A program made the position numbers and the translations under genes. DNA of 64,000 nt from Kiritimatiellia bacterium (GTDB taxonomy: Bacteria; Verrucomicrobiota; Kiritimatiellia; RFP12; UBA1067), in contig JAFWKK010000038.1 of NCBI GenBank assembly GCA_017514235.1, positions 62,001 to 126,000 of the forward strand, in the 5' to 3' direction. The notes under the pieces are model-generated. The model did not search any database, had not been told where the DNA came from, and saw only the letters and a program-made list of their open reading frames with translations. Below, in pieces: positions 31,664-40,358 of the stretch (its first letter is position 1; each line of letters starts with the position of its first letter).

Positions 31664-32254
31664 ATGACACCTGACACATCCACCACGCTTCTGCGAGAGA
31701 TATCGTCAGACGCGGACAACGCGCGCTGGCCCGAATTCGTCGCGCGGTATCGTCCAATGATGCTCGCATACCTCAAGTCGCACTTCCCGGCGGTAGACGC
31801 GGGCGACGTTGTCCAGGAAACGCTGATCGCGCTGTCAAAGGCCCTTCCCAACTATCGCTACGATCCAGGCGAGAACGGACGCTTCAAGAACTACCTGACC
31901 GGCATCCTCCGCAACAAATCACTGAAATGGTGCAAGCAGGCCAACCGGGACCGTGCATTGAAGAACGACCTTATCTCCGGCGTGGTTCCGCCACCGCCGT
32001 CCACAGCGGAGATGAATGAGGCCGCTTGGCGCGAGTCACTTCTCGAAATCGCAATGTATCAGCTTCTTGCCAACGAACGCATACCCGACAAGTCAAAGCA
32101 GATATTTCAGCGACTGACTGTTGATGGCGCATCGCCAGACGAAGTGGCTATCGCATACGGCACAAGCCGAAACAACATTGACAAGACAAAAAGCCGCATA
32201 ATGGCGCGGCTTCGCGAAATCGTGCGGGCGCTGGAGGCCGCCGGAGATGCCTGA
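31664..32254 (+). CDS. ECF-type RNA polymerase sigma factor
   Basis: A 196-residue sigma-70-family factor with only regions 2 and 4. Region 2: FVARYRPMMLAYLKSHFPAVD and DAGDVVQETLIALSKAL (core binding and -10 recognition). Region 4 is the helix-turn-helix GASPDEVAIAYGTSRNNIDKTKSRIMARL. The last eight bases overlap the start of the Ser/Thr kinase gene, so both are co-translated. ECF factors paired with a Ser/Thr kinase are a known theme in PVC bacteria, where the kinase takes the place of an anti-sigma factor. Its targets may include the downstream zinc-ribbon genes (inference). Confidence 0.88.
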   Translation: MTPDTSTTLLREISSDADNARWPEFVARYRPMMLAYLKSHFPAVDAGDVVQETLIALSKALPNYRYDPGENGRFKNYLTGILRNKSLKWCKQANRDRALKNDLISGVVPPPPSTAEMNEAAWRESLLEIAMYQLLANERIPDKSKQIFQRLTVDGASPDEVAIAYGTSRNNIDKTKSRIMARLREIVRALEAAGDA

Positions 32255-33764
32255 CAAGACGGAGAGCGAGATCACGAGTTTCCTCAGTGCGCATGGCCCG
32301 TTTGAGGATCCCCCGCTTTTCAGCAATGGCGACAGCATGGGCGAATGGATGATTCGCGCCTTTCTCGGGCGCGGCGGAAGCGCAGAGGTCTATCGCGCAG
32401 AGAACATGACCACGGGCTTAATCGCCGCATTAAAGATCCTTTGCAAATCAGACGACAGAACCCGCGAACGATTCAAACGCGAGACTCGTCTTCTTGCCGA
32501 AATCCAAAGCTCAACGTTTCCGAAGTTCTACGGGGCCGGATGTGCCGACGGACGTTTCTACATCGCAGAAGAACTATTGGGACCGATGCAAACGCCAAAA
32601 GCTGACGCAGAGGTCGCACGATTCGTGCTCGCAGTGGCGGCAGGAGTCGAGGAACTACATCGCCGAGGATTCGTCCATCGGGACATAAAGCCACAGAACG
32701 TGATGATACGCCCCGCAACAGGCGAAAGCGTTCTAATTGATATGGGGCTTGCGAAAGAAGACGACGAGGTACCGCTGCCGAGCAACGACAGAGTGTCTGT
32801 TGTCAATGGACGCGCCGTTGGCGTCGGCACACCGGGCTTCTCCGCTCCAGAGCAATTTACTGGCGGCAAAATCGGGCCGGCGACAGACATCCATGCACTC
32901 GGAATGCTGGCTAACGTCTGTTTTGACGGCAAGCCACCAAAGGCATGGACGAAGATCATCCGCCGTTCAACAAGCTCCATACCGGAACAGCGATATGCAA
33001 CCATCTCAGAATTTGCAAAGGCTATCCACCACCGCCATGCCACCAACTGGTGGCTCATCGGAATCATCTCATCATTCACCATAGCTACTGTCATGGCATA
33101 TGTCGCAATGTTCTGCAAGATTTCCGATGGGGACAATCCCCAGAAAGACAGCGAGGAGGCTACAAAAAATATTGATAAAGAACAAAAAATCGTAAAGAAA
33201 GAATTAGTGAACGCGATTCTGGATGTTGTATATCAAGGAGAGGGAGATGGCGGAGCACCTGTGGAAAAGGCCATAACGAATGGTACGATTAACGCTGAAA
33301 GCCTCTTCTGTCTTGGAGAAACTAAATACGACCATAATGTTATGGTAACACGAATTGCACTGAACGGACGGGATGTGTCGATTCCTAAGGAGGTTAGATT
33401 AGATGGAAAACAAAGAATTATGATTTCCGGTCCTGGACGTCTGACTGCTTCAATTACTGGCACACGCGATGTGAGTCTCGACCTTGGCGAACAGGCGACG
33501 CTCATAAACCTCACCTCAATACCTTATCCTGAATCCAGCATGAAGTATGTTCTTTGCGGAGCCTGCTATCTGAACTTCAAGAATCTTGATTGGCCAGCCG
33601 ATGGCGACATAAAGAATATTTGGGTAGCCGATTCTATCAGTCTTGGCGACAAAGGCATGCCGTCATTTCGTTTCCGCGGTCCGGACTCCTACGAAGAAGC
33701 CAGAAAGATTGATCAAGAGACGGACATGGAAGCAATGCGGAAAGGCATATTGCCATCATATTAA
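32247..33764 (+). CDS. Transmembrane Ser/Thr protein kinase
   Basis: A 505-residue membrane kinase. Kinase domain about 34-262: glycine loop LGRGGSAEVYRAE (40-52), Lys63 in AALKIL, HRDIKPQN (144-151, catalytic Asp145), DMG in place of DFG (165-167) and SAPEQF (199-204). One membrane segment at about 268-290, then an extracytoplasmic domain of about 205 residues that I do not recognise; it is beta-rich with VSIPKEVRLDGKQRIMISG-like strands. Catalytic residues are intact. Base composition drops from GC-rich to AT-rich just after the membrane segment (about 33150), suggesting a composite gene. A near-palindrome GGGGACAATCCCC sits at that boundary. Confidence 0.88.
   Translation: MPDKTESEITSFLSAHGPFEDPPLFSNGDSMGEWMIRAFLGRGGSAEVYRAENMTTGLIAALKILCKSDDRTRERFKRETRLLAEIQSSTFPKFYGAGCADGRFYIAEELLGPMQTPKADAEVARFVLAVAAGVEELHRRGFVHRDIKPQNVMIRPATGESVLIDMGLAKEDDEVPLPSNDRVSVVNGRAVGVGTPGFSAPEQFTGGKIGPATDIHALGMLANVCFDGKPPKAWTKIIRRSTSSIPEQRYATISEFAKAIHHRHATNWWLIGIISSFTIATVMAYVAMFCKISDGDNPQKDSEEATKNIDKEQKIVKKELVNAILDVVYQGEGDGGAPVEKAITNGTINAESLFCLGETKYDHNVMVTRIALNGRDVSIPKEVRLDGKQRIMISGPGRLTASITGTRDVSLDLGEQATLINLTSIPYPESSMKYVLCGACYLNFKNLDWPADGDIKNIWVADSISLGDKGMPSFRFRGPDSYEEARKIDQETDMEAMRKGILPSY
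33129..33141. repeat. Near-palindrome GGGGACAATCCCC
   Basis: One mismatch from the 13-base palindrome GGGGACAGTCCCC found three times in the queH-birA gene. It encodes GDNP just after the kinase membrane segment. Confidence 0.4.
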
Positions 33765-33873
33765 AACAATTCCGACATTCTCACCTGTCAGATTTTCACC
33801 TTGACGGGAAATATCCATGTGGAGGAAACTTCACATGGGGAAAGTCATTTTATCAAGAAGAACAATAATTTGC

Positions 33874-33879
33874 TATAAT
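33874..33879 (+). promoter_or_regulatory. Extended -10 promoter of the candidate RNA
   Basis: TTTGCTATAAT: TGC extended element with a perfect hexamer. Nothing coding starts within the next 400 bases. Confidence 0.55.
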
Positions 33880-33885
33880 ACGCCT

Positions 33886-34199
33886 GTCCTACGCAAGCGG
33901 GGCGAGTTGATCTTTGACATCGGCGGGAGGCAGATCGTTGCTCCCGCCACCGGCCCGAAGCCAGCAGTGGCAGACGGCAAAACCTCAGGTGATACGGCAG
34001 CACACATCTCATGCGCCAACCGCCCTGAGGAGTTGCGGAAACGCATCCGACGCCCGCAGCATGTACGCTACATCAGCGTATTGGGTTTCGTGGTAAAGCC
34101 TCTAACTTTCCAAAACGAAAAACCGAATACGATGGTGCGTCGCGTGTATCACACGCGGCGTACCTTCTTTTCTCGTTTTTCGTTAAGGTTCTTAGAGGC
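33886..34199 (+). ncRNA. Candidate structured RNA of about 310 bases
   Basis: From the predicted start near 33886 there are: a perfect 8-bp hairpin GGCGGGAG/CTCCCGCC (33922-33929 with 33941-33948); a 7-bp pairing CCTCAGG/CCTGAGG (33983-33989 with 34024-34030); and a nested element made of GCCTCTAA/TTAGAGGC (34098-34105 with 34192-34199), AACGAAAAAC/GTTTTTCGTT (34114-34123 with 34175-34184) and a 13-bp stem 34135-34147 with 34151-34163 (two G-U pairs, loop ATC). The inner stem is followed by CTTCTTTTCTCGTTTTT, which could terminate transcription, making the RNA about 290 bases. It does not match tmRNA, RNase P, 6S or SRP RNA by eye. It may equally be a leader for the zinc-ribbon genes. Confidence 0.45.
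34098..34199. repeat. 102-base imperfect palindrome
   Basis: Three nested stems of 8, 10 and 13 base pairs, as detailed for the candidate RNA. Only one copy is seen in the window. Confidence 0.75.
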
Positions 34200-34295
34200 A
34201 CCTTCCACGAGACGGGATTCAGAGGGTGCGCCGCTTTTCATTTCCGCGTCGAAGCAGCAGCATCCAGTATGGTAGACGCGAAAGGAGAACCGGCA

Positions 34296-34916
34296 ATGAA
34301 CATCAAATGCCCGCATTGCGGAACAGAATATGAGATAACACAAGCCGAGTATGGCAGAGTTGTTAGGTGTGAAGTCTGCCGCAATGAGTTTGTTGCGGGG
34401 ATTTCAAAAACCTCAAATATTCTTGGATTACACTCAGAACAAGAATGTAAACTTGGACAAAGAAAAAATACGTCACGGCAAGAAACTCAGCCGACAAAAA
34501 CCGATATTCATCAACATACGACTGGACACCGAAGGATATCCAGTAGTGGAGGCTTACGAGCGCCTGTACGTATTACTGGACACCGAAGGATATGTACGCA
34601 CTGTGGAGAGATTGCAGACGCGCCAAAAGCAGGACAAGAAACAGCCATAAAAGCCATAGTAGTAGGTACGGGTGTAACCTTTTTCCTAGTATTCCTAGTG
34701 CTTCTCATAGCCAGCATTCTTATGATGAACTTGATCTTATTATTAATCTCCTTCATATTACCCATGATTATATCTGTTCTCACTCGGCCAATGGTCAAGA
34801 ACCTACATGATGCAATAACAACTTGTCCCCATTGTAAATGCAATAACTGTCTTGTGGATTTAAATAGTCCAATGGGTAAAAAGGTATTTAATGAAACACA
34901 TCCCAATGGCTTCTGA
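34296..34916 (+). CDS. Zinc-ribbon membrane protein, paralogue 1
   Basis: A 206-residue protein starting MNIKCPHCGTEYE. The zinc ribbon uses CPHC (5-8) and CEVC (25-28). A Ser/Thr/His/Arg-rich linker follows, with two copies of TGHRRI and a second CTHCG motif (about 102-106); then two membrane segments (about 117-136 and 138-160), and a C-terminal CPHCKCNNC. The gene has an AAAGGAGA ribosome site. First of five tandem paralogues sharing the same N-terminal cassette. No function is known; CxxC ribbons of this MJ0042-like kind are often placed at the start of bacterial membrane proteins. Confidence 0.75.
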   Translation: MNIKCPHCGTEYEITQAEYGRVVRCEVCRNEFVAGISKTSNILGLHSEQECKLGQRKNTSRQETQPTKTDIHQHTTGHRRISSSGGLRAPVRITGHRRICTHCGEIADAPKAGQETAIKAIVVGTGVTFFLVFLVLLIASILMMNLILLLISFILPMIISVLTRPMVKNLHDAITTCPHCKCNNCLVDLNSPMGKKVFNETHPNGF

Positions 34917-34966
34917 AACGAAAATTCAACAACAAGCAATATGCTATTGTCAAGGAGATATAGTAA

Positions 34967-35701
34967 ATGAATATCAAATGCCCGCATTGCGGAACGGAGT
35001 ACGAAGTCGAGAAGATAGACATGTACCACTATACGAAATGTGGTGTGTGCAGCAAGGGTTTTGTCATCGGAGCCGAAACGAGCATGCAGGATTCGGCCAA
35101 AAACCATTCTTCATCCGATTCCCGCCAACGAGCACCAGCAAATCGCAATACGATGAAGAAAATGTCGATGATTTCAGACGTGGCTTTAGCTTTAGGCGTT
35201 CTCCTTGTCCTTGTCGTGAGTGCTGCCGCAGTTGGCGGGTTTTGCTTATTGGTAGGCAACACATACAACCATTTAGATCCAACAACAGTCATAGTTGAGG
35301 GAGTAAAAATCAGCACCCCAAAAAACGTAGGTTCCGGGTTCGAGAAAGCAGGGGATGGTCTTTATACCGTGACTATGTATGACTCCAGCAGTAAGGTCAT
35401 ATGGCCTGATACAATAGATATCATGAGCAGAAAAGAAAAATGGCCAATGCGTTCCATGGATGACTATGTCTCTGATTTCATTGCTTATGTTAAGAAAGAG
35501 GGGAAGCGTGCGCAGGTGATTTCTGTTGATGAGAACTATGCATATATCGAGCATGAGACGAGCACACAACGATGCTACAAGAAAATTCTTAGGGATGTGA
35601 AAAATGAGCGGTTTGTCCTCGTGTCAGCATATTATAACAAGGAGAGCACAAATGAAGATTCCATGCGGAAATGTGTTCAAGGTGCTAAGTTGGCACTGTA
35701 G
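34967..35701 (+). CDS. Zinc-ribbon membrane protein, paralogue 2
   Basis: A 244-residue protein: MNIKCPHCGTEYEVE ribbon (C5, C8, C25, C28), a polar linker, one membrane segment (about 69-93, LALGVLLVLVVSAAAVGGFCLLV), and a C-terminal domain of about 150 residues. That domain ends KKILRDVKNERFVLVSAYYN...RKCVQGAKLAL, which matches the end of paralogue 4 (IRDVKKNRFVVITG...RCVRSAQLE). It should lie on the other side of the membrane from the ribbon. Its general look (short beta strands, final helix) recalls PsbP/DUF1795-type folds, with low confidence. Ribosome site CAAGGAGA. Confidence 0.75.
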   Translation: MNIKCPHCGTEYEVEKIDMYHYTKCGVCSKGFVIGAETSMQDSAKNHSSSDSRQRAPANRNTMKKMSMISDVALALGVLLVLVVSAAAVGGFCLLVGNTYNHLDPTTVIVEGVKISTPKNVGSGFEKAGDGLYTVTMYDSSSKVIWPDTIDIMSRKEKWPMRSMDDYVSDFIAYVKKEGKRAQVISVDENYAYIEHETSTQRCYKKILRDVKNERFVLVSAYYNKESTNEDSMRKCVQGAKLAL

Positions 35702-35784
35702 ACGTAATCGTAGGGATGCTTAAAAATACGAGAGATGCAAAATGCGAGGCAACATCTAACAAAAACAAGAAATGAATCACAACA

Positions 35785-37899
35785 ATGAACATCAAATGTC
35801 CACACTGTAGTGCCGAGTACAATGTCGATGAATCGGCAAGATATCACTACACAAAATGCAAATCGTGCGGAAATGGTTTCGTAGTTGGCGCAACAGATAT
35901 CCAAAAACGGACAAAACACGCATCATTTGTACAATCACATACGACAACATCAACGAACCGGACGTTCAAATTCAAGTGTGTTGAGTGCAAGAGATGGATG
36001 TATGCAGATGAAACTGCGAAAGGCCGCATACAAGGCTGTCCATATTGTGGGGCAAGACTGGCCATTCCGAAAACCATTCCGCCGATGCTGGGTGACACGT
36101 CAGTCCCAAAAGATGTAAGGGTTCGTGTTGCTACAAATACATTCTGGCAACTGTTCACGGCTGCGCCGTGGCAAATTCGAATTTGCGCCATATGGCTTGC
36201 GATTGGTGGTTTGTCCACACTGCCCATCACCATCTACAAAGGACTTACAATACTTCTGATTTTCGTATGTATCGGCATTCCGTTTTCGCTACTATGGGCA
36301 TGGATGCTTACAAAGTGGAATTGGTCTCGCTGGATTACTATAATTGGCTCGTTCTTAAACGTGTTTTGGCTTATGGTATTACTGCTCTTTTGGGAAAGGA
36401 TGAACTTCGGCCCTAACGAGCTTATTGCGCAGATTTTCGGATCGATCATAGGAATTCCCATGGCAGTATGGCTTCTTGCACGACCTTGCGCCGCTTGGTA
36501 CAAATACCGACATGTTGGCGTGCTACAACCACCACCTGGCAAACGCCGTCCCATGTTCCTGTTCGTCATTGCCTACATAATCGCGATTGTCACAGCACAG
36601 ATTGTTGCAGGTCCGCTTTGGTTTAAGCTCGAGCATGTCGACGAGAACACTTGCCCGATAGTCACTGACATGTTGTACACAGAATCCTCGCAATCCCCAC
36701 AGGTGGGAACTGCGTATGCATTAGGCTGTAGTTTCGGCATTCAAAACTGCCACACGTGGAGTTTTGAAATCAGCAAATCACATAAATCATATTGGAGAAT
36801 CGGGAGCTTCGCAAAGTTCATTCCAGACCCTGGCTCTTCCCATGTTCCGATATCTGGATTCGATGCATTCCTAAAGACGACACAGAGTTTTTCGCATGGT
36901 ACACATACATGCACTGGAGTGTATGTCTGTTGCGGCACGGTAGAGATTGACCACAACGAATATCCAGTCCTGTGCTATATGGACGGCAAGATTGCACATA
37001 AACGTATTTCTGAGATAGAGGAGGCTGAGAGAATAGCGACGGAGACAAAAGAAAAAGAGGCGAGAATAAAAAAGATTGTCGAAACGCGCGACAAAGTCGC
37101 ATTACGGGTGAATCGGATCAACAATGTCTTGCATGGTTTAGTATATGTCGGGTTTAACGCGCAGATTGCAAGTAAAGTCAATGTTTCGATAGATACAAAA
37201 ACGGAAACGACAATAAACCTCAATCACACATTAACAATATCAAACAGCGTTGAAGAAATTGATGCCGAGCAAATGAGATTGGATAAAGAATTGAAACGAT
37301 TGGATAAAAAAGAAGGTTCACTTGAAGCATGCTATAATGTCCATAAACGCCATATCGAAGAAGCGGAGGCTGCGGAAAGGAAACGCCGAGCGGAGAAAGA
37401 AAAGGAGGCAGCAAAACGTCGCGCAGAGGAGGAAGCCCGTGAACTTGAATCCCGAAAGGAGAATTGTGTACCATGTGGTGGATCTGGCCATGTTGCTTGC
37501 ACATGTTGTAATGGCACTGGATCCATTGAGACAAGCGACTCTTATACATGTTCATCTTGTTCAGGCAATGGCACAGTCTTTAGAAATGTAAAATGCAACA
37601 GGTGTAGTGGCAAAGGTTCAACAACACAAAAGTGCTCATATTGTTGGAGGTCAGGCGGCATACGGAAAAAGAACTGTCTCTGGTGCGGAGGGAGTGGATA
37701 TAAGAACGAAGAATACTGTACTGCTTGTGGCGGTGCGGGTTCGCGCTATGCATCTGTATGTTGCAGAAGGTGCGGAGGCAGGGGAGAAATATCATCCTCA
37801 GAGAAAGTCATCTGTCCAATCTGCAGTGGCAAATGCAGACTAAAGTGTAGCCGTTGCGGTGGAAACGGCTTTACCTACAGGCCGAAAGGGATACAATGA
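35785..37899 (+). CDS. Zinc-ribbon membrane protein with coiled coil and DnaJ-like Cys repeats, paralogue 3
   Basis: A 704-residue multidomain protein. Order: N-terminal ribbon MNIKCPHCSAEYN; a second ribbon CVECKRWMYADE...CPYCGARL (about 65-90); a membrane module of four segments beginning FWQLFTAAPWQIR (about 116-240) that parallels paralogues 4 and 5; another segment about 255-273; an extracytoplasmic stretch to about 415; a long charged coiled coil (about 415-555, rich in Arg/Glu/Lys/Ala); and a C-terminal Cys-rich domain (about 560-700) with at least eight CxxCxGxG-type units, like the DnaJ zinc domain but longer. No Shine-Dalgarno sequence is evident. Its stop overlaps the next start as ATGA. 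Confidence 0.78.
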   Translation: MNIKCPHCSAEYNVDESARYHYTKCKSCGNGFVVGATDIQKRTKHASFVQSHTTTSTNRTFKFKCVECKRWMYADETAKGRIQGCPYCGARLAIPKTIPPMLGDTSVPKDVRVRVATNTFWQLFTAAPWQIRICAIWLAIGGLSTLPITIYKGLTILLIFVCIGIPFSLLWAWMLTKWNWSRWITIIGSFLNVFWLMVLLLFWERMNFGPNELIAQIFGSIIGIPMAVWLLARPCAAWYKYRHVGVLQPPPGKRRPMFLFVIAYIIAIVTAQIVAGPLWFKLEHVDENTCPIVTDMLYTESSQSPQVGTAYALGCSFGIQNCHTWSFEISKSHKSYWRIGSFAKFIPDPGSSHVPISGFDAFLKTTQSFSHGTHTCTGVYVCCGTVEIDHNEYPVLCYMDGKIAHKRISEIEEAERIATETKEKEARIKKIVETRDKVALRVNRINNVLHGLVYVGFNAQIASKVNVSIDTKTETTINLNHTLTISNSVEEIDAEQMRLDKELKRLDKKEGSLEACYNVHKRHIEEAEAAERKRRAEKEKEAAKRRAEEEARELESRKENCVPCGGSGHVACTCCNGTGSIETSDSYTCSSCSGNGTVFRNVKCNRCSGKGSTTQKCSYCWRSGGIRKKNCLWCGGSGYKNEEYCTACGGAGSRYASVCCRRCGGRGEISSSEKVICPICSGKCRLKCSRCGGNGFTYRPKGIQ

Positions 37900-39140
37900 A
37901 CATCAAATGCCCGCATTGCGGAACTGAATATGATGCCGAAGAAAACGAATACGGCAGATTTGTGAAATGTGCAGCATGCGGCAAGGGTTTTGTTGCCGGG
38001 ACATCGATTGCCAAGAAACTTGGCGAAGCGGCTGGCGCTGTAAAGGACGCGGCTAAAACCGCCACGAATGCGGCTTATGAAAAGGCGCGAAACATTGATT
38101 GGAAGGCACATGGAGAACGTGCCAAAGCTGCGGCTGACGCGGCATACGACACTGGGAAAAGGCTATACAGGTCTGCGTTGGATAAATTCGAGGAGTGGGG
38201 CTTGCGTCATAAGTTTGCACAATTCTGGCAGTTGCTATCCTCGACACCATGGCCACTACAGTTTTCCTCGGTGTACATATCTGTGTTTGGATGTGCTCTT
38301 GCTGTTTGCAACTTTATGACGACAAAGTCACTTTCTTCATTAGTCCAAGCCTCTCTAATAGTCGCAATCGCAATTGCAATTGCGCTTACGCTTGTACGTC
38401 ATAACTTCGTGCGTTGGGTACTCATCGCGTGGGGTGGATTCAACGTGATATTGTTACTCTGCGGATCACGTGACTTCGCGTTCCTTTGGCCGTTCAACAT
38501 CTGTTTTATTGTGATTGCGATCCTACTCATGATACCATCCGCTCAGCAGTGGTACAGTATCCGAAATAGAGTTTCCAATCAAGAAGCAAATATGCTTTCT
38601 AGTCGCCGAGTGTTTGCCTGTGCCACTGCTTTGGCGCTAGTCATGGGGATTTTCCTCTATACAGGCCACAGTTCGGAACGAAAAAAAACACTAGAATCTC
38701 TTGACGGCATCTTGATTGAGAAGCTTGACGGACAAACCTTCAACAAGCAGACATTCCTCGGAAAAGATATATATGTCTCCTCCATGTCTCCTTCCGACGG
38801 CCTTGCTCCGAATGTGAATATTCTCATGGACAAAATTGTCTCGGGGCAGTTGCCGACTCTTGCCGAATATGTCAAGCTGACATTCACCCAGTATAAAGCA
38901 ATGGGGTGCAATCCTTCACTTTTGGAAGAGGATGACGATTATGTGACTATGGGGGCGTCGGGCAATGGCTTTACTTTTGCCGTGAAGATAATACGGGATG
39001 TCAAAAAAAACAGATTTGTGGTCATAACTGGGACTATAAGGACAGATACGGCTGTCAGCGCCGCTAGACAAACGGATTCTTCGGCACAGCGCATTACCCA
39101 TGAAATAATACGTTGTGTACGCAGCGCTCAATTGGAGTAG
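37896..39140 (+). CDS. Zinc-ribbon membrane protein, paralogue 4
   Basis: A 414-residue protein. Ribbon MNIKCPHCGTEYDAEENEYG with C5, C8, C25, C28; an Ala/Lys amphipathic helix region (about 37-98); the FWQL...PW membrane module of about five segments (about 110-245); and a C-terminal domain (about 255-414) related to that of paralogue 2 by its final IRDVKKNRFVVITG and RCVRSAQLE blocks. The start ATG 37896 is set by the ATGA overlap with paralogue 3. Its membrane module is nearly duplicated in paralogue 5 at DNA level. Confidence 0.78.
   Translation: MNIKCPHCGTEYDAEENEYGRFVKCAACGKGFVAGTSIAKKLGEAAGAVKDAAKTATNAAYEKARNIDWKAHGERAKAAADAAYDTGKRLYRSALDKFEEWGLRHKFAQFWQLLSSTPWPLQFSSVYISVFGCALAVCNFMTTKSLSSLVQASLIVAIAIAIALTLVRHNFVRWVLIAWGGFNVILLLCGSRDFAFLWPFNICFIVIAILLMIPSAQQWYSIRNRVSNQEANMLSSRRVFACATALALVMGIFLYTGHSSERKKTLESLDGILIEKLDGQTFNKQTFLGKDIYVSSMSPSDGLAPNVNILMDKIVSGQLPTLAEYVKLTFTQYKAMGCNPSLLEEDDDYVTMGASGNGFTFAVKIIRDVKKNRFVVITGTIRTDTAVSAARQTDSSAQRITHEIIRCVRSAQLE
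38282..38680 (+). repeat. Tandem duplicate, copy 1 (membrane module of paralogue 4)
   Basis: Aligns to 39431-39829 at a constant offset of 1149 bases, with no gap noticed at the ends; long runs are identical, for example TGTGTTTGGATGTGCTCTTG in both. Confidence 0.75.
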
Positions 39141-39164
39141 GCAACACCGTAAAGGACAAGTATA

Positions 39165-40211
39165 ATGAACATCAAATGCCCGCATTGCGGAACAGGATAT
39201 GACGCTGAAGAGAGCGAATACGGCAGATTCGTAAAATGTGCGGCATGCGGCAAAGGCTTTGTTGCTGGGACTTCAGTCGCGCCATGGTCTGGCAAATCAA
39301 CAAGCACTATAAAGAATACCGCAAGAATTGCGACGAATACGATTTGTGTAAAAACGGACAGTCTGACACAATCCTTGCTATTGTATGAGTCCTCGCCATG
39401 GACAATCCGATTCTCGACAGTATACACATTTGTGTTTGGATGTGCTCTTGCTGTTTGTAACTTACTGACGGCAAAGTCACTTTCTTCATTAGTCCAATCC
39501 CTCTTCATATTCACAATCGCAATTGCAATTGCATTCGCGCTTGTACGTTATAACTTTGTGCGCTGGTTGCTTATCGTGTGGGGTGGATTCAACGCAATAT
39601 TGCTTTTCTGTGGGTCACGCGACTTCGCATTCCTTTGGCCGTTTCACATCTGCTTTATTGTGATTGCGATTCTGCTCATAACACCATCCGCTCGGCAATG
39701 GTACAATATCCAAGGTAGAGCTCATAATTTCAAAGCAAATCCGCTTTCTACTTATCGAGTATCTGCCTGTGCCACTGTTTTGGCGCTAGTCATGGGGATT
39801 TTCCTCTATGCAGGCTACAGTTTAGAACGAAAGCGGATAATAGAGTCACGGAATAACAATTATGCATACCGAGACAGCGATTCATCATCGTTAACTCTGT
39901 CGCATACAGCATCACCTCCAAGTTCGCATACAAACGCGAAGAATGCGATACGCGAAGCACTATCAAATGTCAAAAACAGGTACAGGCTAAACCTCACACG
40001 CCTTGGACTTACTGAATCATACTATGACGAGACAAATGGCATCTGCGACCTCATGCTTCTGGACATCAACAGCTGGACAAAGTATCAAATTGTCTATTAC
40101 AGAGGCTCAGAACAACTTGAGTGGCCGCGTTTGATGCAAAAGGACATGGCGGAACTTCTCATGCACGACAGGATGCTGATAGATACATACGAAAAAACGT
40201 CAAGCAGATGA
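39165..40211 (+). CDS. Zinc-ribbon membrane protein, paralogue 5
   Basis: A 348-residue protein with the ribbon MNIKCPHCGTGYDAEESEYG, a shorter linker than paralogue 4, the same membrane module (about 75-220; LSSLVQS, VRWLLIVWGGFNAILLFCGSRDFAFLWPF), and then an unrelated Ser/Thr-rich stretch and C-terminal domain (about 235-348, ending MLIDTYEKTSSR) in which NYAYRDSDSSSL starts the new part. So the membrane module is shared and the C-terminal domain exchanged. Ribosome site AAAGGAC. Last gene of the island; 147 bases with nothing recognisable follow. Confidence 0.77.
   Translation: MNIKCPHCGTGYDAEESEYGRFVKCAACGKGFVAGTSVAPWSGKSTSTIKNTARIATNTICVKTDSLTQSLLLYESSPWTIRFSTVYTFVFGCALAVCNLLTAKSLSSLVQSLFIFTIAIAIAFALVRYNFVRWLLIVWGGFNAILLFCGSRDFAFLWPFHICFIVIAILLITPSARQWYNIQGRAHNFKANPLSTYRVSACATVLALVMGIFLYAGYSLERKRIIESRNNNYAYRDSDSSSLTLSHTASPPSSHTNAKNAIREALSNVKNRYRLNLTRLGLTESYYDETNGICDLMLLDINSWTKYQIVYYRGSEQLEWPRLMQKDMAELLMHDRMLIDTYEKTSSR
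39431..39829 (+). repeat. Tandem duplicate, copy 2 (membrane module of paralogue 5)
   Basis: Second copy of the unit at 38282-38680. Sequences outside the unit, apart from the 5' ribbon cassette, are unrelated. Confidence 0.75.
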
Positions 40212-40358
40212 GTTGTCCTTTCCGCCCTCGTAGTTAATTGGCATACGAAAAGAACAGAGGAAAACTACTTAAGCGTCCGTAGCACCGATCATTGAGATGA
40301 TCATAGCAACTTAACATCTGTGATTTCTAGGATATTGAATCCGCAGGAACAAGCCGAT

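Follow-up and report, generated by a model that had tools for sequence, protein, structure and literature searches.

A covarying leader RNA precedes a tandem zinc-ribbon gene array and other accessory operons in Kiritimatiellia and may act as a transcription switch

The window analyzed here, a 64,000-nt stretch of DNA from a member of the Kiritimatiellia, carries on its plus strand five consecutive genes whose products begin with MNIKCPHC (ORF starts at 34296, 34967, 35785, 37896, and 39165), as a preliminary description of the locus had stated. Gene 1 (34296–34916; 206 aa) encodes an MJ0042 zinc ribbon, additional CxxC pairs, and a hydrophobic stretch, while gene 2 (34967–35701; 244 aa) combines the ribbon with a single hydrophobic stretch and a C-terminal domain that recurs in gene 4. 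The product of gene 3 (35785–37899; 704 aa) contains the ribbon, a second ribbon-like part, a membrane module, a charged stretch that by eye resembles a coiled coil, and a Cys-rich C-terminus; its DnaJ_CXXCXGXG match is sub-threshold. Gene 4 (37896–39140; 414 aa) joins the ribbon, a PW membrane module, and the gene-2-type C-terminal domain, and gene 5 (39165–40211; 348 aa) has a gene-4-type ribbon and membrane module followed by a C-terminal domain of its own. Upstream on the same strand lie genes for an ECF-type sigma factor (31664–32254; 196 aa) and a Ser/Thr protein kinase (32247–33764; 505 aa; Pkinase E 1.8e-26) with, by eye, one long hydrophobic stretch, followed by a leader RNA (33871–34287). 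The identities of the sigma factor and kinase were confirmed, as was the low G/C content of the block: it is 0.43–0.48 in the seven 1-kb intervals of 33–40 kb and 0.55–0.67 in the other 57.

The first 27 bases of genes 1, 2, 4, and 5 agree pairwise at 26–27 positions, and gene 3 shares 20–21 with each of them, a likeness for which gene conversion and constraint cannot be told apart. With up to two mismatches, ATGAAYATHAARTGYCCNCAYTGYG occurs five times in the 3.96-Mb assembly, every time at this locus (reversed control, 0). A genome search with TIGR02098 (MJ0042) placed all five genes above the cut-off and returned no other match at E≤0.1; by hmmscan, genes 1, 4, and 5 exceed 20.9 bits and genes 2 (18.7) and 3 (20.6) fall slightly below. 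The membrane module common to genes 3, 4, and 5 is reflected in 69% amino acid identity across 162 residues between genes 4 and 5, and in 26% across 249 aa, ribbon included, between genes 3 and 4 (E 1e-16). Across 137 aa, the C-terminal domains of genes 2 and 4 share 23% identity (E 2e-6, valid for one comparison). Profile searches against the PDB yielded only ribbon-level LysW-type matches and one ribosomal protein (E 0.19) for genes 2 and 4, and zero matches for gene 3.

The exchange of modules proposed in the preliminary description is supported by a sharp-edged DNA identity profile between genes 4 and 5, with identity of 77–92% across the greater part of the ribbon and membrane module and far lower values elsewhere, as well as by other combinations in relatives. 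The C-terminal domain of gene 5 is a separate, ribbon-less protein adjoining ribbon genes in genomes G009 and G055 (L040 9517–10272, L045 6152–6919), and in G012 and G004 the C-terminus of gene 3 is fused to another middle part, Sel1-like by its letters. Likewise, gene 1 relatives in G009 and G011 carry a C-terminal SHOCT-like domain which the window's gene 1 lacks. Of 62 genus genomes, 12 contain TIGR02098 matches (E≤0.01), one apiece except for the window's own genome (five) and G009 (a tandem pair), and phmmer added a second nearby ribbon gene in G055 and G004. The relatives thus differ from a pattern of single copies with conserved full-length architecture; their architectures vary. Together, these comparisons support a tandem, apparently module-shuffled set of zinc-ribbon membrane proteins, which may be envelope stress sensors or effectors. 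Of the earlier overall interpretation, module exchange and linkage to the sigma factor and kinase are supported; the suggested defence role derives from neighbors and other cargo of the leader and not from the five proteins.

The order sigma factor, kinase, RNA, cargo also occurs in G009 and G055, where homologs of the sigma factor lie at the equivalent place. Among an initial set of 24 leader loci, the pair precedes the leader in only these two and the window (a further 46 loci lie outside this count). In G004, the block is absent on the rlu side, with a single edge readable and the contig ending 242 bases past it, and G055 has a partial leader remnant in front of an FRG gene. Probably, the sigma factor and kinase belong to the same transferable block as the leader and its cargo. 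Adjacent ECF sigma and Ser/Thr kinase genes are also described for the EcfP–PknT and EcfK–PknS pairs of ECF43, and STK-linked ECF sigma factors are a known type (PMC8999054). ECF43 members lack the DAED motif in region 2.2, whereas the window's sigma factor retains acidic residues there (DAGD; DADD in homologs), so that we rejected ECF43 membership.

The more far-reaching result concerns the leader RNA, which is the element shared between loci and which the preliminary description mentions in passing, as a candidate RNA; it proved to be a real, covarying RNA. It begins with an extended −10 promoter element, TGCTATAAT (33871–33879), matching TGNTATAAT at 8 of 8 positions. A boxA-like motif, TGATCTTTGACAT (33908–33920), is directly followed, at a boxB-like place, by a hairpin (33922–33948; GGCGGGA/TCCCGCC). 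Further downstream are a hairpin with covarying pairs (34027–34060; TTGCGG/CCGCAG) and a covarying core (34062–34243; model R1, 145.8 bits) comprising long-range helices H1–H3, hairpin H4, an alternative helix T, and a U-rich tail. Within the core, H4, a proposed antiterminator, spans 34134–34164; its 3′ strand overlaps the 5′ strand of T (34155–34167), and the 3′ strand of T (34222–34234) together with the tail forms a proposed intrinsic terminator (34222–34243). The last segment (34245–34287) contains, by eye, a final hairpin (CGCGTC/GACGCG) and the Shine-Dalgarno sequence AAAGGAG. All of these features lie on the plus strand. An Rfam search of the window detected only tRNAs at gathering score; for the leader, the best sub-threshold hit was a group II intron at E 0.16 and 18.8 bits, and we rejected an intron remnant on these values. 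A phage origin was likewise rejected, as one exact pattern had 0 matches in viral contigs.

Related leaders were detected in 118 of 192 related genomes, with a best E≤1e-20 in 68. As the leader RNA is nearly palindromic, some of the weak R1 matches (about 30–45 bits) are real copies matched in antisense, and the low-scoring order- and class-level ones are not all trusted. Leader length, about 400 nt in the window, is roughly 350–550 nt in other copies as judged from the place of boxA. Of 62 genome stretches we dropped 16 whose first 130 bases repeat an earlier copy, as well as L147 as a chance match. Alignment A1 holds 23 of 24 leader copies (L083, with a diverged 3′ part, was left out), and alignment A3 holds 53 of 63 references after removal of 10 by hand; the reference set left out L083, L103, L125, L151, L129, L139, and L147.

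Structure and covariation thus mark the leader as an RNA element, and its copies are oriented like the accessory operons they precede, about 50 nt ahead of the first gene; these operons are otherwise unrelated. In 69 of 72 copies the longest downstream ORF is on the plus strand (upstream control, 26:22), and the distance from the core end to the first Shine-Dalgarno sequence with start codon, found in 68 of 76 copies, has a median of 50 nt (IQR 45–59), compared to an IQR of 53–142 at random positions (found in 217 of 385). Starting from 69 copies and leaving out four without an ORF and five more, we surveyed 60 cargo proteins; the cargo comprises restriction systems, MZA/FRG defence, BspA surface proteins, acyltransferases, and the ribbon membrane proteins.

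Motif scoring covered the 73 copies that have 330 nt or more upstream; as leader copies are related to each other, neither these counts nor the others given here are independent. The extended −10 reaches 7–8 of 8 positions in 36 copies (3.3% of shuffles), is weak (≤6 of 8) in 36, and could not be scored in one that was too short; a plain promoter scan of 33600–34400 returned two sites compared to 0.9 in shuffles. An ECF-dependent leader promoter was rejected, since conservation falls on an extended −10 of the sigma70-like kind. boxA matches at least 8 of 10 positions in 64 copies (7.7% of mononucleotide shuffles), at least 9 of 10 in 51 (0.6%), and at most 7 of 10 in nine, while TGATCTTTGA occurs once in the window with both strands searched. 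Similar motifs are present in 16S leaders of kin (TGATCTTTGA in G116 and G176, GGATCTTTGA in G068); RF00177 found 16S in four of 14 genomes, one of which, G055, has just 34 nt upstream, and none in the window's own genome. At the level of sequence, the leader has a boxA motif like that of rRNA leaders early in the predicted transcript. The hairpin after boxA has a mean z of −1.32 in 51 copies (z<−1 in 24).

Pairing in the core is supported by double changes in 19 of 33 H1–H4 pairs and five of 13 T pairs; the double-change cells number 295 for H1–H4 (shuffled mean, 84) and 76 for T (17). Helix T, named after viewing the same sequences that test it, has 13 bp with 96.4% of cells paired (slid versions, 31–62%), and its pair types show no excess (16 vs 16.0 in shuffles). 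H4 is 97.6–100% paired although T takes its 3′ strand, which suggests that the two alternate, and its variation is nearly confined to one side, as expected if the 3′ strand must fit two partners. The tail has a mean of 5.96 U in 8 nt and at least five in 50 of 53 copies, compared to 2.23 and 7.8% for other 8-mers of the same cores; it is interrupted, and when located by a crude anchor its T count falls to 3.61 of 8 (1.53 at random). An alternative pairing of TTAGCGG with the terminal strand as a local hairpin was rejected, as in A3 its register, by eye, is not kept between two copy classes, whereas that of the helix between the H4 strand and the terminal strand is. Energy models do not settle between H4 and T: when the helices are enforced, 42 of 53 copies favor the T fold in stability, and free MFE structures contain at least eight T pairs in only 10, at least seven H4 pairs in only 10, and at least five H2 pairs in 39. 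The T loop of about 55–60 nt is long for a terminator.

Taken together, we consider it reasonably likely that the leader is an attenuation/antitermination leader common to accessory operons, of which the ribbon genes are one cargo operon here. Transcription would start at the extended −10, and the nascent boxA and its hairpin would load an antitermination complex of Nus factors, in the manner of rRNA leaders, or, with lower probability, of the genome's NusG paralog. The decision point would be helix T: polymerase would read on as long as H4 and the long-range helices H1–H3 hold, whereas pairing of the H4 3′ strand with the terminal strand would form the 13-bp helix followed by the U-rich tail and stop transcription before the cargo. 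The structure and cis position of the leader are well shown; its switching and use of Nus factors are predictions.

T and H1–H3 cross, and both covary, so that they could coexist in a pseudoknot in which T would be no plain terminator. The leader might accordingly fold into a single large pseudoknot (H1–H3 plus T) which, by binding a ligand or protein, affects how the cargo mRNA is translated or how stable it is instead of termination, and the additional hairpin before the Shine-Dalgarno site (placed with a crude anchor 42 nt past the tail in other copies, where z averages −1.10 and lies below −1 in 34 of 69) would fit such a role. The near-complete pairing of H4 despite the use of its 3′ strand by T, and the U-rich strand 3′ of T, make this unlikely compared to attenuation.

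Less likely still is a leader that serves mainly as a recombination landing site, with homologous recombination between copies swapping cargo and RNA structure being secondary. The same leader before unrelated cargo, the remnant in G055, and the missing block in G004 are in line with it; against it, compensatory changes in several helices require selection on RNA pairing, and the spacing to the start codon is narrow. Finally, the ribbon genes could be an ordinary tandem envelope-stress family under the upstream sigma factor and kinase alone, with the leader incidental. The equal gene order in G009 and G055 and the existence of STK-linked ECF sigma factors agree with this; against it, the pair precedes only three of the initial 24 leader loci and a consensus-like extended −10 belongs to the leader itself, so that we regard it as very improbable.

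Riboswitch-type transcription attenuators use mutually exclusive hairpins, one of which is followed by a U tract. The favored attenuation model resembles them in having two mutually exclusive helices, one of them a candidate terminator with U tract, as judged from sequence and alignment; it differs in that the leader carries boxA, is not known to bind a ligand, and has cargo other than a single metabolic pathway. Harmless expression of freshly acquired operons is an old question, to which few answers are known: RfaH/ops, LoaP, and Nus antitermination at CRISPR arrays, the last of these named in PMC12691694. boxA leaders read by NusB/NusE are known from rRNA operons and the suhB leader, and as here carry the motif near the transcript 5′ end, with targets beyond rRNA (PMC5725501); in our case, the motif comes together with a putative switch, large, conserved, and folded, in front of many unrelated accessory operons. 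Like the Kiritimatiellia leader with its putative terminator, the dfn leader controlled by LoaP in Bacillus velezensis (PMC12691694) has a hairpin and terminator region before long, costly operons, but the RNA here is larger, with many copies and kinds of cargo. RfaH/ops control of xenogeneic operons (PMC7593976, PMC2871177) similarly places one leader element before many accessory or surface operons; ops is a short DNA element, in contrast to the ∼200-nt covarying RNA core.

The window's own genome encodes a second NusG-family protein of 178 aa, the kind of specialized paralog expected for RfaH-, LoaP-, or UpxY-type leaders. Of the 62 genus genomes, 33 have at least two NusG matches (29 among the 49 RNA-positive and four among the 13 RNA-negative genomes), counts confounded by incomplete genomes; NusG paralogs do not clearly track with the RNA.

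Many related bacteria carry related leaders before unrelated accessory genes, those for virus defence and surface proteins among them, which suggests that acquired genes share an on/off switch. If true, a multi-copy, strongly conserved switch leader of operons for defence, surface, and membrane proteins would add a new example, one with an RNA fold of its own, its covariance model would provide a means to find such operons, and a puzzling paralog array would become a testable regulon. More speculatively, Kiritimatiellia, a largely uncultured class, might control accessory, probably foreign genes through an RNA-based layer that spans the genome, with one mobile boxA-armed switch leader fitted before acquired operons, which could be jointly released or silenced depending on how the antitermination machinery stands or on one signal, e.g., infection or ribosome stress. 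The relatives of the window bacterium are animal-gut dwellers.

The five tandem plus-strand zinc-ribbon genes opening with MNIKCPHC (genes 1–5, starting at 34296, 34967, 35785, 37896 and 39165) were found as the preliminary description reported them, as was the AT-rich character of the block (GC 0.43–0.48, whereas the remaining 57 1-kb windows have 0.55–0.67). Within the organism's own 3.96 Mb assembly (estimated completeness 92%), the start pattern at up to two mismatches has five matches, all of them these genes, which are also the only ones to match the zinc-ribbon model TIGR02098 at E≤0.1. Of the first 27 bases, 26–27 are identical in any two of genes 1, 2, 4 and 5, and 20–21 between gene 3 and each of these; over the first 100 bases, compared ungapped, gene pairs have 50–89 identical positions. 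The identity of the 27-base starts is compatible with both conversion and constraint.

The proposed exchange of modules was borne out. In 60-base steps, DNA identity between genes 4 and 5 is 90 and 77% in the ribbon, falls to 56–67% or gaps in the linker, reaches 67–92% across seven steps of the membrane module, followed by one of 62%, and is 33–52% beyond it. The C-terminal domain of gene 5 exists as a stand-alone, ribbon-less protein adjoining ribbon genes in two related genomes (G009 and G055), the C-terminus of gene 3 is attached to a different middle part in G004 and G012, and relatives of gene 1, which itself lacks such a domain, carry a C-terminal SHOCT-like domain (26.3 bits in L040 and 22.8 bits in L041, neither reaching the Pfam cut-off of 27). 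Moreover, genes 2 and 4 have a C-terminal domain in common (23% over 137 aa). Thus, the identity profile, the domain combinations in relatives and the domain shared by genes 2 and 4 establish module exchange at this locus.

The order ECF sigma factor (31664–32254, +), Ser/Thr kinase (32247–33764, +), leader RNA (33871–34287, +; core 34062–34243) and cargo genes is the same in G009 and G055, with different cargo. In G009 the cargo comprises an FRG-CBS protein, a ribbon-SHOCT protein, a ribbon protein and a gene-5-domain protein; in G055, after ∼1.3 kb without a clear gene, it comprises an FRG protein, a small ribbon protein, an AAA protein, a ribbon protein and a gene-5-domain protein. A remnant of a second leader 3′ end, 82% identical to window positions 34224–34280, lies right before the FRG gene in the G055 block (L045 11783–11839, −), as if leader-cargo units were stacked. 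In the closest relative found, G004 (rlu 92% and yebC 99% at the amino acid level), homology to the window begins at 40358, and at E 1e-5 the 242 bases beyond this edge have no match to the window, so that G004 lacks the block there, at the sole edge visible. Further DNA matches to the sigma/kinase region in G004 (C90:220316–221647, C84:47897, C43:164049 and C58:49572) suggest that such pairs may form a multi-copy family in the genus. The window pair resembles STK-linked ECF systems. Membership of the sigma factor in ECF43 was rejected, since acidic residues are kept in the DAED place, by the definition in PMC8999054. Upstream of the leader promoter, window positions 33781–33923 are conserved in G055 (72% over 147 columns) and include, by eye, an inverted repeat, CCATGTG...CACATGG, at ∼33814–33839.

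The leader is widespread. The 431 bases upstream of gene 1 have blastn matches in 25 of 62 genus genomes, and a covariance model (R1; 53 copies, 181 positions) matched 118 of 192 genomes at E≤0.001, with best matches of E≤1e-20 in 68 (by hand count, 38 of the genus, 27 of the family and three of the order). Since 14 candidates were scored in each genome, the per-genome copy numbers are minimum values; the two strong copies of the own genome score 164.8 and 145.8 bits, and it has a further copy at 89 bits and three weaker matches, among them the antisense of the window copy. Downstream of its second strong copy lies a gene for a 1353-aa BspA-type LRR/Listeria-Bacteroides repeat protein (L210 3890–7948, −). 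An exact pattern of 20 specified bases retrieved 62 stretches from GTDB contigs, labeled Kiritimatiellae/-ia (20), Verrucomicrobia (10), Lentisphaerae (6), 'uncultured bacterium' (23), Clostridia (1), 'bacterium' (1) and Bryobacteraceae (1, taken for a chance match), and none from viral contigs. Rfam gave only tRNAs above gathering in the window, the best sub-gathering match in the leader having E 0.16. In the open-access literature we found no paper on a Kiritimatiellae riboswitch, a Kiritimatiellota noncoding RNA or a Verrucomicrobia/Lentisphaerae structured RNA motif, and among the antitermination papers listed no title or abstract opening describes such a leader.

The leader is conserved, covarying and codirectional, with two alternative helices. 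Double changes occur in 30 of 51 predicted pairs on 23 copies and in 19 of 42 on 53 copies. The long-range helices H1–H3 and hairpin H4 (33 pairs) are 94.9% paired, compared to 35–51% in slid controls, and T, which joins the 3′ strand of H4 with the strand preceding the U-rich tail, is 96.4% paired, compared to 31–62% in slid controls that favor T, as it was defined after inspecting the same sequences. Double-change cells number 295 for H1–H4 (shuffled mean 84) and 76 for T (shuffled mean 17), in each case reached by 0 of 500 shuffles, which do not preserve relatedness among copies. T does not exceed shuffles in its number of pair types (16 versus 16.0; reached by 459 of 500), and its pair 130–189 is unpaired in 19 of 53 copies. 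H4 is 97.6–100% paired with variation almost confined to one side, as expected if one strand has to fit two partners. On the 53-copy alignment, RNAalifold alone gave neither T nor a local terminator and instead had the terminal strand pair with the core's 5′ end; energy models did not decide between the folds.

In 36 of 73 copies, versus 3.3% of shuffles, the 90 nt preceding boxA contain an extended −10 (7–8 of 8 to TGNTATAAT), which in 28 of these copies starts 33–50 nt upstream of boxA. Of the 73 copies, 64 carry boxA itself (scored against TCTTTGACAT) at ≥8/10, as do 7.7% of shuffles, and 51 carry it at ≥9/10 (0.6% of shuffles); TGATCTTTGA occurs once in the window, both strands searched. 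RF00177 matched four of 14 genomes, the own genome not among them, and among the 16S leaders, the three that extend far enough upstream carry TGATCTTTGAAAA (G176), TGATCTTTGAGAA (G116) and GGATCTTTGAGAG (G068). BoxA tends to be followed by a hairpin (mean z −1.32 over 51 copies, 24 of them with z<−1). In 50 of 53 copies the tail after T includes at least five U in eight positions; elsewhere in these cores, 7.8% of 8-mers do. Downstream, 69 of 72 copies tested have their longest ORF on the leader strand (upstream, 26:22), and the first Shine-Dalgarno sequence plus start, found in 68 of 76, follows the core end at a median of 50 nt.

These features suggest a model in which transcription would start at the extended −10, Nus factors would load at boxA, and the leader would choose between H4, the proposed antiterminator, leading to reading on, and T, leading to a stop. 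Outside rRNA, boxA recruits NusB/NusE, e.g., at suhB, where the effect is repression (PMC5725501), so that the sign of the boxA effect at the leader could be either. We infer that the ribbon proteins combine a cytoplasmic end bearing the metal ribbon with a membrane part and C-terminal domains that can be exchanged; in the weakest step of the mechanism, they would serve in envelope stress as sensors or effectors. At least two NusG-family hits were found in 33 of 62 genus genomes (29 of 49 RNA-positive versus four of 13 RNA-negative), with no clear tracking of the RNA; the own genome encodes a NusG-family paralogue of 178 aa (L213 4287–4823).

Divergent leader-like RNAs (∼30 bits with R1) precede ribbon genes in G011 and G019 (L041 4348–4504, −; L047 4363–4477, −). 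By eye, their hairpin 3′ strand seems complementary to a terminal strand, followed by T-rich sequence; with other letters, they seem to obey the T/H4 logic and may represent a second class of this switch.
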